A DNA stretch of 39,005 bases from Patescibacteria group bacterium (GTDB lineage: Bacteria; Patescibacteriota; Patescibacteriia; UBA1558; UBA10009): positions 1-39,005 of the forward strand of contig JAHISB010000044.1 of assembly GCA_018818425.1 (NCBI GenBank). Reading direction: 5' to 3'. The notes beneath the pieces were generated by a model. It saw nothing but the letters and a program-made list of their open reading frames with translations. It had not been told where the DNA came from and did no database searches. A program made the translations under genes and the position numbers. Shown here piece after piece: positions 32,701 through 38,866 of this stretch. Positions within the stretch are counted from its first letter, which is position 1. The number at the start of each line of letters is the position of its first letter.

Positions 32701-33252
32701 ATGAAAATCGGTGTTTATGGTTCGGCAGCCGGCTCCATTCCGGCTGAACTAAATAAAAAAGCCGGAGCAATCGGCAGGCAAATCGCTGTTAAAGGGCATA
32801 CTTTAGTCACCGGAGCTTGTCCCGGCCTGCCTTACGAAGCGGTTTTAGGCGCTCAAGAAGCCGGCGGCGAATGCCTTGGCTTTTCTCCGGCAGTCAATTT
32901 GAATGCTCATATTCAAAAAGATAAATTTCCCACCGAAGGATTTACCAAGCTGATTTTTATTCCAAAGGATTTTATTTATGCTGACAATCCTTTGATTTGC
33001 AGAAAATATAGAAATGTGTTTTCGGTCGCCGAAATAGATGCCGCCATCTTTATCAGCGGCCGGACCGGCACCATGAATGAATTCACTATTGCTTATGATT
33101 TAGGAAAGAAGATAGGCATTTTAAAAAACAGCGGGGGAGCGGCCGATGGAGCCATTCAGGTTCTTCTAAAAAATTTAGGCAAAGAAACAGGGGCAAAAAT
33201 AATATATGAGGCTGATCCAATATCTTTGGTGGACAAGTTAATAGGTTTATAG
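32701..33252 (+). CDS. SLOG/LOG-like Rossmann nucleotide-binding protein
   Basis: The 183-aa product has the Rossmann-type start MKIGVYGSAAGSIP, GHTLVTGACPGLPYEAVLGA and an SGRTGTMNEFTIAYDLGKKI segment corresponding to the 'PGGxGTxxE' signature of the LOG/lysine-decarboxylase-like superfamily, with the Pro-Gly-Gly replaced by Ser-Gly-Arg. True LOG enzymes release cytokinin bases from nucleotides. The variant motif points to the TIGR00725-like or SLOG nucleotide-sensing groups instead, with unknown ligand. It follows 16 nt after the surface protein and ends at a terminator (33285-33319). Confidence 0.8.
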   Translation: MKIGVYGSAAGSIPAELNKKAGAIGRQIAVKGHTLVTGACPGLPYEAVLGAQEAGGECLGFSPAVNLNAHIQKDKFPTEGFTKLIFIPKDFIYADNPLICRKYRNVFSVAEIDAAIFISGRTGTMNEFTIAYDLGKKIGILKNSGGAADGAIQVLLKNLGKETGAKIIYEADPISLVDKLIGL

Positions 33253-33284
33253 AATATCTTAAAATTAAATTATTTTGCTAATTT

Positions 33285-33319
33285 TAGCCAAAAAGTAATA
33301 AAAAAATGGCTATTTTTTT
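33285..33319 (+). terminator. Intrinsic terminator of the SLOG gene
   Basis: TAGCCA and TGGCTA form a stem followed by seven T residues. Confidence 0.75.
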
Positions 33320-33328
33320 ATTTTATGC

Positions 33329-33357
33329 TTGACAAGATTATTAAAGTATGCTATAAT
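33329..33357 (+). promoter_or_regulatory. Consensus promoter of noncoding RNA 1
   Basis: Perfect TTGACA (33329-33334), a 17-nt spacer and perfect TATAAT (33352-33357). This is the strongest promoter in the window, yet no protein frame of note follows for 780 nt. Confidence 0.9.
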
Positions 33358-33363
33358 ACTTTA

Positions 33364-33711
33364 TTAAACTAAAAATCGGGGAGAGAACTTTAAATTAATC
33401 CCTCTCATTTTTATGGGGAGGGAATTGGGGAGAGAGTATTTTAGGGGGCACTTATTAATAAATTTATTATAGGCCTTACCTAATCTCATCCTCAATTCTT
33501 TTCTTGTAAGAAGGATGAATAGAATTTTGTCACTGACCGTTAATTATTTGTTATTTTTAATAAAAAATAGTTATTGGAGGGAGAGAGCTTCCCATGCTAA
33601 CATAGGAGGCTTTTAAGGAAAATCATTTAGCTTTCTTTTTCGGTCGGGTCTCTTTCATGACTGAAAAATCGCTATCTAATTTTCCGTTTCGCCCTCCAGT
33701 AATTGTTTTTT
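33364..33711 (+). ncRNA. Structured noncoding RNA 1 (unassigned)
   Basis: No coding frame fills this stretch. From 33562 to 33711 it folds as a branched RNA: helix P1 (33562-33581 with 33692-33711) has 20 unbroken pairs including three G-U wobbles; P2 (33583-33592 with 33605-33614) has 10; P3 (33617-33623 with 33679-33685) leads to TAGC/GCTA and P4 (33636-33645 with 33659-33668, 10 pairs). The 5' part has a hairpin (33399-33406 with 33416-33423) and another near 33487-33517. The P1 3' strand ends in six T residues. Purine runs GGGGAGAGAA (33378), GGGGAGAGAG (33427) and GGGAGAGAG (33579) recur. It does not show tmRNA, SRP or RNase P signatures; a 6S-like role is possible but the branching does not fit. 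Confidence 0.75.
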
Positions 33712-33716
33712 AAAAG

Positions 33717-33850
33717 AACACTGATCACCCGCTTACGCTAAAGCTTCAGCGGGCAAGCGCGAACCGCGCTGACTTTCGCGAACCGCAAACACTAATTTGT
33801 CAGCGGTCAGCGTTAGTCAGTGAATGTCTGCGTGGCCAGTGTTTGTCAGC
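33717..33850. repeat. Long-hairpin repeat W4, copy 5
   Basis: GAACACTGATCACCCGCTTA words and GCGAACCGC repeats are followed by inverted GCGTGGCCAGTGTTTGTCAG. It includes a short GCTAAAGC-loop hairpin (about 33728-33752) related to the one in the broken tRNA. Confidence 0.65.
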
Positions 33851-33870
33851 GCCGGTAAATATGATATTAT
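33843..33870 (+). promoter_or_regulatory. Promoter of noncoding RNA 2
   Basis: TTGTCA (33843-33848), a 16-nt spacer and TATTAT (33865-33870). Confidence 0.55.
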
Positions 33871-33876
33871 ATAGAT

Positions 33877-34047
33877 AGTTCATCAATCCGTTTGGTGGAT
33901 AAAAAGCTGCGTTTTTAGAAGCTGGATTATAAAACTTTATTTCGTCGAGTTTTACTCAACGAAAAAAATCTCTCTCCTCAAAGTTCTATAATTCACGCAA
34001 TTTTCTAGAGCGCAGCTTTTTGGTTTATAAAAAATTTGCAGCCAGAG
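33877..34047 (+). ncRNA. Structured noncoding RNA 2 (rod-like, unassigned)
   Basis: AAAAAGCTGCG (33901-33911) pairs perfectly with CGCAGCTTTTT (34011-34021), and the helix continues through TAGAA/TTCTA. Next come TGGATTATA (33923-33931) with TATAATTCA (33987-33995), AACTTT (33933-33938) with AAAGTT (33980-33985), and an end hairpin (33940-33949 with 33955-33964). The result is a nearly linear rod with one bulge, 33965-33979, containing CTCTCTCCTC. That bulge is complementary to GGGGAGAGAG (33427-33436) of RNA 1 (10 pairs, one wobble). A terminator follows at 34048-34075. Confidence 0.65.
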
Positions 34048-34075
34048 ATGCCCTTAAACGAAAGAGGCATTTTTT
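34048..34075 (+). terminator. Intrinsic terminator of noncoding RNA 2
   Basis: ATGCC/GGCAT with an inner CTT/AAG extension and a one-base bulge, followed by TTTTTT. Confidence 0.8.
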
Positions 34076-34077
34076 AC

Positions 34078-34106
34078 TTCACAAAAAATAAAAAAAATGC
34101 TATAAT
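34078..34106 (+). promoter_or_regulatory. Promoter of murJ
   Basis: TTCACA (34078-34083), a 17-nt spacer and TATAAT (34101-34106), giving a leader of about 38 nt. Confidence 0.75.
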
Positions 34107-34150
34107 CAGGGCGTTAACCTCATGAATATATTGAGGTATTATTTAAATTT

Positions 34151-35734
34151 ATGGTTAAAGTCTTTTGGCATAAACTGATTACTACCGTCACGGGCGGAGC
34201 TGTGCTTATTGCCACTTTTTCTGTTGTCAGTAAAATACTCGGCTTAGTTAGAGACAGATTGCTGGCCTCTTATTTTGGCGCCGGCGATATTCTTGACAGT
34301 TATTATGCGGCTTTTAGATTGCCGGATTTAATCTTTAATACTTTGGTTCTGGGCGCACTGGCTTCTGCTTTTATTCCGGTTTTTACCAAGCTTTGGTTTA
34401 AAAATAAAGAAGAAGCTTTAAAGCTTTCTAATGCAGTATTGAATTATTTGGTAATGTTTTTGGTTTTGGTCGGCATAGCAGTTTTTGTTTTAGCGCCGCA
34501 GATTGTTGCTGTTATCACACCGGGATTCAGCGGCGCTAAGCTAGTTCAGACAATTAATTTAACCAGGATAATGCTTATTAGCATTGTTTTTTTTGGCATC
34601 AGCAATGTTATCGGAGGCATCCTCAATTCTTTAAAAAGATTTTTAAGTTTTTCTTTGGCGCCGGTTTTTTACAATCTGGGCATAGTATTCGGCATTACTG
34701 TTTTTTATAAATTATACGGCGTAGCCGGACTGGCTTGGGGCGTTGTTTTAGGCTCGGTATTGCACCTGCTGATCCAGCTGCCGGAAGTATTAATATCTGG
34801 CTGGAAATACCACTGGTCTTTTAAAGCGACTGCAGAAGTTAAAAAAGTGTTAAAGCTAATGGTCCCGCGAACCGTGGGGCTGGCCGGCAATCAGATTAAT
34901 CAGATTGTTATTACTATAATTGCTTCCACCCTGGCAGCCGGCAGCGTGGCTATTTTTAACTTAGCCAATAATTTACAGAGTTTCCCCATTTCCATTTTCG
35001 GCGTTTCTTTGGCCATTGCCGCCTTTCCCGTATTTAGCGAAGCCTTAGGCCTGGGCGACCGCGAAGGATTTAAAAAAATATTTTCTGTTCATTTCAGAAG
35101 AATTTTATTTCTGATTATTCCCGTTTCGGTGTTTATCCTCCTTTTAAGAGCCCAGATTGTCAGGGTAATTTTGGGCGCCGGCAATTTTGACTGGTCCGAT
35201 ACCTATTATACGGCTCAAGCTTTGGGCTGGTTTATTATTTCTTTATTCGCCCAAAGCACCATTCCCATGCTGGCCCGCTCTTTTTATGCTTTGGAAGATA
35301 CCAAAACACCGGTCATCATCAGTTTGGCCGCTATGGTAGTTAACATTGCCGGTTCTTATTTTTTAGGCGCCAGGATGGGCGTGGAGGGTTTGGCTTTGGC
35401 TTTTTCCATAGCTTCTATATTAAACATGATTGCTTTAACTATGGCTTTAAGGCTTCGTTTGGGCTATCTTGATGATAAAAAAATCATCTGGTCTACTTTT
35501 AAAATCAGCCTTAATTCTTTGATAGCCGGCGCCGGGGTTTATTTTATGCTTAGAGTTATGGCCGATTTAGTTAATATGCGCACTTTTGCGGGAGTTTTTA
35601 TTCAGGGTTTAGCGGCCGGCATCGTCGGCATAGTGATTTATTTAATTATCAGCTTCTTTACCAATTGTGAGGAGATTGTTATGGTGAAGAGGTTTTTTCA
35701 GAAGCATTTAGAGCCGATAATAAAAAAATCCTAA
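34151..35734 (+). CDS. murJ: Lipid II flippase MurJ (MviN family)
   Basis: MurJ flips lipid-linked peptidoglycan precursor across the membrane. The 527-aa product has about 14 membrane helices and the family N-terminus with SVVSKILGLVRDRLLASYFG, AGDILDSYYAAFRLPDLIFN, LGALASAFIPVFTKL and, further on, QINQIVITIIASTLAAGSVA and YALEDTKTPVIISLAAMVVN. The Arg-Asp pair of the substrate cavity (VRDR) is kept. It has its own promoter and lies between the noncoding RNA region and lepA. MviN-family members can also flip other polyprenyl-linked glycans, so a role in the surface-glycan block cannot be excluded. Confidence 0.92.
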   Translation: MVKVFWHKLITTVTGGAVLIATFSVVSKILGLVRDRLLASYFGAGDILDSYYAAFRLPDLIFNTLVLGALASAFIPVFTKLWFKNKEEALKLSNAVLNYLVMFLVLVGIAVFVLAPQIVAVITPGFSGAKLVQTINLTRIMLISIVFFGISNVIGGILNSLKRFLSFSLAPVFYNLGIVFGITVFYKLYGVAGLAWGVVLGSVLHLLIQLPEVLISGWKYHWSFKATAEVKKVLKLMVPRTVGLAGNQINQIVITIIASTLAAGSVAIFNLANNLQSFPISIFGVSLAIAAFPVFSEALGLGDREGFKKIFSVHFRRILFLIIPVSVFILLLRAQIVRVILGAGNFDWSDTYYTAQALGWFIISLFAQSTIPMLARSFYALEDTKTPVIISLAAMVVNIAGSYFLGARMGVEGLALAFSIASILNMIALTMALRLRLGYLDDKKIIWSTFKISLNSLIAGAGVYFMLRVMADLVNMRTFAGVFIQGLAAGIVGIVIYLIISFFTNCEEIVMVKRFFQKHLEPIIKKS

Positions 35735-38320: not shown

Positions 38321-38866
38321 CTAATCCCGACCAAACAAACTTTCAAATTTAATAGATTTAAAATTGTTGCGATTTAGATATTTCAAACAATCTTTTATTA
38401 AAACATCAAAGTCCTTTTCAAAACGGTTATGAGTAACATTTTGCCTTAAAGCTTTCCAAATCCGCTCTTGAGGATTAAACTCGGGGGTGTAAGGCGGGAA
38501 ATTCATTAAAGTGAATCGCTTAGTGGTTTTTAGAAAAGCTTTGATCAGCTTGGATTTGTGCCAGCTGGCATTGTCCCAGATTAAGAAAATCTTTCTGTTT
38601 TGATAAATTTTCCCCAGTTTCTTTAAAAATTCAATACTGGCCTTACTATTCTGCCGTTTGACGGTTATAGCCGTCTCTTTGCCGGTCTTAAGATTTAAAG
38701 CGCCGTAAAAACTCTGATTTTGGCCTTTCCTTTTGGCTTCAATTAGTGGTTCCTGTCCTTTAAAGTACCAGATATTCTTGGTCTTGGTCTCTTGGTTCAA
38801 GCTCATTTCATCTTCTACCAAGAGAACCGAATCTTTGTGCTTTTGTAAGTTTTTTTTAAAGCGCCC
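38321..38866 (-). CDS. IS630-type transposase, DDE domain (frame B)
   Basis: The frame encodes the RNase-H-fold DDE catalytic part: LVEDEMSLN (first Asp), IFLIWDNASWHKS (second Asp) and the YTPEFNPQERIWKALR motif with the final Glu, all typical of IS630. It opens after a TAA at 38867-38869 and has no ATG before the first catalytic Asp (a TTG lies at 38819-38821), so it is probably read by a -1 ribosomal frameshift from the overlapping upstream frame at a run of eight A (minus strand, 38850-38857). All three catalytic acids are intact, so the enzyme could be active if the shift works. Confidence 0.85.
   Translation of the reverse strand, partial: GRFKKNLQKHKDSVLLVEDEMSLNQETKTKNIWYFKGQEPLIEAKRKGQNQSFYGALNLKTGKETAITVKRQNSKASIEFLKKLGKIYQNRKIFLIWDNASWHKSKLIKAFLKTTKRFTLMNFPPYTPEFNPQERIWKALRQNVTHNRFEKDFDVLIKDCLKYLNRNNFKSIKFESLFGRD

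Follow-up and report, generated by a model that had tools for sequence, protein, structure and literature searches.

The window analyzed here comprises 39,005 nucleotides of contig JAHISB010000044.1 from an uncultured, ultra-small Patescibacteria group bacterium (genome G000, assembly GCA_018818425.1), in which two structured RNAs, RNA 1 and RNA 2, adjoin the cell wall gene murJ. No gene was found between positions 33252 and 34151, such that 33253 to 34150 is gene free, as an earlier note made from the sequence had claimed for the stretch following the RNA 1 promoter. The neighboring gene murJ, encoding lipid II flippase, occupies 34151 to 35734 of the plus strand, outside both RNAs (PF03023; E value, 1.3e-95). 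A separate murJ promoter, TTCACA-17-TATAAT (34078 to 34106, plus strand; 11/12 match), lies 3′ of RNA 2, and TATAAT-like boxes were seen by eye at the same position in genomes G002, G003, and G015. Just before the murJ start, the leader contains a short hairpin, CCTCA...TGAGG (34118 to 34136, plus strand), and inspection by eye indicated a similar hairpin in G001, G002, and G003. Dispersed palindromic, REP-like repeats (CCCGCTTACGCTAAAGCTTCAGCGGGC and neighbors; 33727 to 33851, no strand assigned) are inserted between RNA 1 and RNA 2; this genome contains additional copies at other sites, as do other genomes in the class, and the repeats are not present between the two RNAs in G001 or G002. 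A BLAST search with the whole 771 nt recovered the G001 homologue, and the majority of its matches were REP-like repeats. Farther along the window, a DDE_3 transposase fragment lies on the minus strand at 38321 to 38821.

RNA 1 is preceded by a TTGACA-17-TATAAT promoter with a TG extension (33329 to 33357, plus strand) that matches the consensus at 12/12 positions, the perfect match given in the earlier note, and a strong promoter occupies the equivalent position in G001 and G003. The predicted fold of RNA 1 (33365 to 33715) has an energy of −115.9 kcal/mol, with a z score of −7.35, in standard deviations below shuffled sequence. In the minimum free energy fold, the 5′ domain (33365 to 33555, plus strand) is a long hairpin that includes purine motifs at 33378 to 33387 and 33427 to 33436, and the sequence of this domain is unconserved in G001 to G003. 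The core (33562 to 33711, plus strand) is a three-way junction closed by helix P1 and includes a conserved purine motif, GGAGGGAGAGAG, at 33576 to 33587. The 20 unbroken P1 pairs claimed earlier, three of them G-U, were recovered (33562 to 33581 with 33692 to 33711), and one further pair extends the helix. Covariance searching identified core homologues in G001, G002, and G003, and the alignment of the four genomes contains 50 consensus pairs, 10 of which show two-sided change, with several consensus pairs broken in one sequence. A small peptide starting at an ATG after GAGAGAG in RNA 1 was considered and rejected, as the frame is not kept between the window and G001.

RNA 2 is predicted to form a rod with a tip hairpin and a pyrimidine loop (33900 to 34028, plus strand), and covariance matches were obtained in G001, G002, G015, G157, G175, and G124. 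The fold of the region from 33877 to 34080 has an energy of −62.4 kcal/mol and a z score of −6.19 relative to shuffled sequence, and the strong structure proposed for both RNAs is thus borne out. The near-invariant unpaired loop AAAUCUCUCUCCUC lies at 33966 to 33979 on the plus strand, as defined by a class-wide pattern search and a geometry test, and the portion CTCTCTCCTC at 33970 to 33979 is predicted to be 99% unpaired. The claim that RNA 2 has its own promoter and terminator fared less well. The candidate promoter, TTGTCA-16-TATTAT (33843 to 33870, plus strand), matches the consensus at only 10/12 positions, and the terminator scan made no call; a U-tailed, terminator-like hairpin is predicted 3′ of RNA 2 at 34043 to 34070 but has no counterpart in G001.

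According to BLAST and two covariance models, relatives also have the RNA 1 core and RNA 2 between a DUF4012 gene and murJ, and these two genes flank the loci of G001, G002, G003, and G015. Both RNAs are present in G001 and G002; in G002 they lie 6 nt apart without a promoter or terminator between them. RNA 2 is present in G015, which belongs to another family. RNA 1 is also present in G003, in which the RNA 2 position is occupied by a rod remnant without the CU loop (G003:C30, about 41260 to 41340, locus L030). In place of that loop, the G003 rod carries AAAAGAGGTGATCA, which is nearly perfectly complementary to the 3′ end of 16S rRNA. The covariance search, which the earlier note had proposed as a check, found homologues of both RNA 1 and RNA 2 with covarying helices. 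We conclude that both noncoding RNAs are real.

To place the RNAs among described families, the window and 19 RNA 2 loci were compared with Rfam 15. At the gathering threshold only RNase P and tRNAs were reported, and at an E value of 10 the sub-threshold best matches were attributable to chance. Neither RNA 1 nor RNA 2 matched an Rfam 15 family, 6S RNA included, in agreement with the claim that no described family has these features, and no description of the RNA was found in the literature searched. Moreover, 6S RNA itself (RF00013) had no match in G000 at an E value of ≤1, whereas the same search was positive in 6 of 14 control genomes, and SRP RNA (RF00169) had no match in any of 16 genomes with RNA 2, G000 among them, whereas 11 of 14 control genomes were positive. 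This class may have lost SRP RNA, or its SRP RNA may have diverged strongly.

Searching the class with the RNA 2 model returned three distant matches having the same unpaired AAAUCUCUCUCCUC on unrelated stems. The exact loop 14-mer, AAATCTCTCTCCTC, was found in 53 of 381 class genomes, nearly always once per genome, and the reversed pattern gave a single hit. All 53 loci were inspected, and 48 were used after five had been set aside as chance by their folds. The 48 loci share an architecture built from entirely different stems, namely, a rod, usually a tip hairpin, and then the unpaired motif. When folded with the motif held open, 35 showed the canonical order of hairpin, motif, and enclosing rod strand, 8 showed a permuted form with the hairpin 3′ of the motif, and 3 had hairpins on both sides. 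Canonical or related geometry was therefore present at 46/48 loci, as opposed to 160/960 shuffles of the flanks put through the same test (29 canonical, 50 permuted, and 81 both-sided). The median energy z score over the RNA 2 loci was −6.6, and the loop was predicted to be unpaired in 44 of 48 homologues. To measure covariation, 30 sequences were cut back to a shared core, with loops shortened and junctions closed up. Paired cells made up 93.3% of the core compared to 48.2% when shuffled and about 40% when partners were slid; stem covariation was overwhelming, with a score of 1.181 compared to 0.257 when shuffled, and two-sided changes were found in 11/11 pairs, although the pairs were derived from single-sequence folds, which favors pairing, and the shuffled-flank geometry test is the fairer control.

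Some lineages have variant loops, such as AAACUCUCUCC, AACCUCUCUCC, and AAACUCUCC. A search for the variant AAACUCUCUCCUC found roughly a dozen loci whose folds are highly stable and mostly rod-like, and G219 carries the variant AACCUCUCUCCUC. The genes downstream of RNA 2 cluster by lineage and include murJ, ftsK, ftsW, rpoB, and lysS. That RNA 2 is found once per genome, next to an essential gene that differs among lineages, fits a free-standing RNA better than it fits a cis regulator of one gene. With about even confidence, given jointly to this statement and to the pairing of its loop with purine RNAs discussed below, we regard RNA 2 as a structured RNA of Patescibacteria that stands free of its neighboring genes and is normally present in one copy.

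Two scans extended beyond the class. In a 15-mer scan of GTDB contigs, 80 loci were read among the matches listed; most matches were chance, 11 were judged convincing by fold, and the convincing ones that bore a name were, among those listed, all Patescibacteria (Uhrbacteria, Harrisonbacteria, and others). The second scan, of the phylum, used R3, a class-wide model trimmed around the loop that proved too weak: beyond the window and G080, already a locus of the pattern search, only G404 and G065 look genuine and the rest were chance. G404 is the one genome outside the class in which that scan placed RNA 2. From the scans made, we therefore place the family in Patescibacteria, and it may occur elsewhere. 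At the Uhrbacteria loci L098 to L110, RNA 2 is preceded at a distance of 1 to 2 kb by fast-evolving open reading frames of about 350 to 440 amino acids, which in some genomes separate it from a promoter-linked purine element. These reading frames are mostly 26 to 38% identical where alignable, and the one examined had no Pfam family above its cutoff.

The earlier note had proposed that RNA 1 and RNA 2 bind each other. The purine motif GGGGAGAGAG of RNA 1 (33427 to 33436, plus strand) is complementary to the RNA 2 loop, and the 10 pairs attributed to it were recovered in a predicted duplex of 10 or more base pairs worth −20.3 kcal/mol before opening costs. The RNA 1 motifs at 33378 and 33427 are unconserved in G001 to G003, where only the P1/P2 motif at 33576 to 33587 is kept. 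Across the class, the motif GGAGAGAG was found within 800 nt of the 48 RNA 2 loci 18 times upstream on the same strand and never downstream, with one site upstream and none downstream on the opposite strand; reversed GGAGAGAG gave 1, 0, 3, and 0, respectively, and the 18 upstream sites sit in 12 loci, some of related lineages. The upstream motif often falls just after a strong promoter. In 13 genomes, elements of the form TTGACA-N38-68-GGAGAGAG precede RNA 2 on its own strand at a distance of up to 5 kb. None was detected downstream, and the sole opposite-strand match was the RNA 2 loop of G128 itself, read as its complement. G179 contains an array of four GGAGAGAG sites, two of which are in near-identical tandem hairpins, and in G081 both GAGGAGAGAG and, after it, RNA 2 lie downstream of a single promoter, within about 170 nt. 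Moreover, the variant loop AACCUCUCUCCUC of G219 is matched upstream by an exact 13-nt complement, GAGGAGAGAGGUU. When loops were swapped between genomes in a small test with mixed results, G015, G002, and G065 scored best with their own loop and G147 and G000 scored slightly better with another genome's loop. These comparisons are suggestive, short of proof, of coordinated change of loop and purine motif across the variant-loop lineages.

Several observations weigh against pairing. About two-thirds of RNA 2 loci lack GGAGAGAG within 1.5 kb, and the U that usually follows GGAGAGAG opposes a U in the common loop. Both motifs had been described as exposed, and that description holds for the pyrimidine loop but not for the purine side. 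The three RNA 1 motifs have mean unpaired probabilities of 0.32, 0.11, and 0.10 and are predicted to be mostly paired, and the accessibility of the purine motifs was 0.31 versus 0.41 for random upstream 8-mers. As the motifs are no more accessible than random, pairing would need to open weak, G-U-rich helices. Promoter-linked GGAGAGAG was found in 28/48 genomes with RNA 2 and 75/333 genomes without it, and this co-occurrence was dropped as evidence, as the reversed control was enriched too (12/48 and 30/333). Hairpin elements with the purine motif GGRGAGAG, many of them behind strong promoters, also occur away from RNA 2 (G001:C4:6010, G102:C27:22901 and 29972, and loci L319 to L356); in several, a hairpin farther downstream contains a UCUCUCC stretch, and some have a second purine motif. 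The proposal of mutual binding thus gains indirect support from the strand-specific upstream enrichment across the class and from the few altered-loop lineages that keep or improve the match, and it loses from the predicted pairing of the purine motifs. Given the matching motifs upstream of RNA 2, RNA 1 and RNA 2 probably pair.

Base pairing with purine RNAs, with RNA 1 as a partner, is the most likely action of the RNA 2 loop as judged from sequence and folding models, and we hold that reading with the same even confidence. The main rival, a possible explanation that we consider appreciably less probable, is that the loop is a binding site for a protein, such as one with a KH, S1, or cold shock domain, and that RNA 2 is a scaffold or decoy. 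Binding by a protein would fit a loop that is unpaired in nearly all homologues and almost invariant, including an AAA(A)U part that lies beyond the reach of GGAGAGAG, but it leaves unexplained both why the exact complement is enriched upstream on the same strand and why G219 shows matching changes. Y RNAs, which have paired ends and a pyrimidine-rich loop and are thought to be protein-binding scaffolds or decoys, resemble RNA 2 in that arrangement; RNA 2 differs in that no tRNA-like module was seen and no Rfam family matched. We give very little weight to RNA 2 being a highly diverged housekeeping RNA. Like SRP RNA and 6S RNA, it is rod-like and normally single copy, and covariance models find neither SRP RNA in 16 of these genomes nor 6S RNA in G000. 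The Rfam search, however, yielded only chance matches, and the tip hairpin of RNA 2 has a variable sequence, whereas SRP domain IV is strictly conserved. 6S RNA binds the sigma-70 RNA polymerase and templates pRNA, and RNA 2 lacks the 6S-like central bubble, presenting instead a single-stranded element beside the tip hairpin.

A role for RNA 2 in general translational repression, with its CU loop masking Shine-Dalgarno sites across many mRNAs, is also unlikely. GA-rich ribosome sites could pair with CUCUCUCCUC, their complement, and LhrC-type sRNAs, which carry a UCCC motif in an unpaired C-rich loop, act by pairing with Shine-Dalgarno regions (PMC4132741). Yet an open reading frame of at least 50 amino acids starts within about 10 nt at only 2 of the 39 promoter-linked GGAGAGAG sites examined, and GGGAGAGAG is scarce in G000, with four sites, two of them inside RNA 1. 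The earlier suggestion that the pyrimidine loop binds ribosome sites, with RNA 1 as a decoy, gains no support from the sites examined. RNA 2 does resemble the C-rich-loop sRNAs of Firmicutes (LhrC of Listeria; RNAIII and RsaE of S. aureus) in its unpaired, CU-rich loop, for which purine-rich sites are the expected pairing partners. It departs from them in that the UCCC motif is absent from AAAUCUCUCUCCUC, and from its stretch UCUCUCUCCUC, in carrying an invariant 14-mer on a covarying rod, in the linked purine RNAs that its own locus encodes upstream, and in having been found only in Patescibacteria. That RNA 2 is a cis-acting 5′ leader of the downstream gene, here murJ, seems slightly less credible even than a housekeeping role: its usual place just upstream of an essential gene on the same strand fits a leader, but that gene differs by lineage, RNA 2 is normally present once per genome, and murJ in the window has its own promoter after RNA 2. 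Finally, REP-like repeats between the two RNAs might point to chance hairpins or to structure at the DNA level, such as a repeat or transposon end, but covariation, a normally single copy, and class-wide conservation leave almost no room for that explanation.

Conserved structure, the invariant loop, genomic linkage, and strand-specific complementarity are computational observations. In the base-pairing mechanism that we propose, both RNAs would be transcribed and paired in the cell. The RNA 2 rod would present the unpaired, nearly invariant AAAUCUCUCUCCUC, which would pair with GGAGAGAG motifs of purine RNAs. The partners would be the RNA 1 modules of the RNA 2 locus, which in some lineages plausibly share a transcript with RNA 2, and perhaps also comparable purine RNAs encoded at other sites in the genome. 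As the nearest partner, RNA 1 might be a target, a sponge, or the docking half of one larger RNA. The duplex could form in cis within one transcript or in trans between two RNAs and would control the activity or stability of the partner. Large ornate bacterial RNAs such as OLE, ROOL, and GOLLD make loop-loop contacts (PMC12286853), and RNA 1 and RNA 2 resemble them as multidomain noncoding RNA with conserved loops that possibly make such contacts. Unlike those RNAs, to which they have no Rfam match, RNA 1 and RNA 2 are smaller and built of modules, the purine modules varying in number. We judge RNA 2 to be a new RNA family, new at the level of RNA class; loop pairing, by which we propose that it acts, is a mechanism of a known type. 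More tentatively, and with somewhat less than even confidence, Patescibacteria may have a dedicated RNA-RNA pairing system in which a single-copy CU-loop RNA, preserved with little change in scores of genomes, is the hub for strongly promoted purine-motif RNAs, the nearest encoded just upstream.

Very little is known of regulatory RNA in Patescibacteria, a mostly uncultured group with small genomes, and in the present searches 6S RNA was not found in G000, nor was SRP RNA in 16 genomes with RNA 2. The proposed interaction predicts precisely which 8 to 13 bases pair and in which lineages both sides have changed. Widespread and structured, with a 14-nt loop that hardly varies and a strand-specific partner, complementary to that loop, lying upstream, RNA 2 is a strong candidate for an ancient and important RNA of Patescibacteria.
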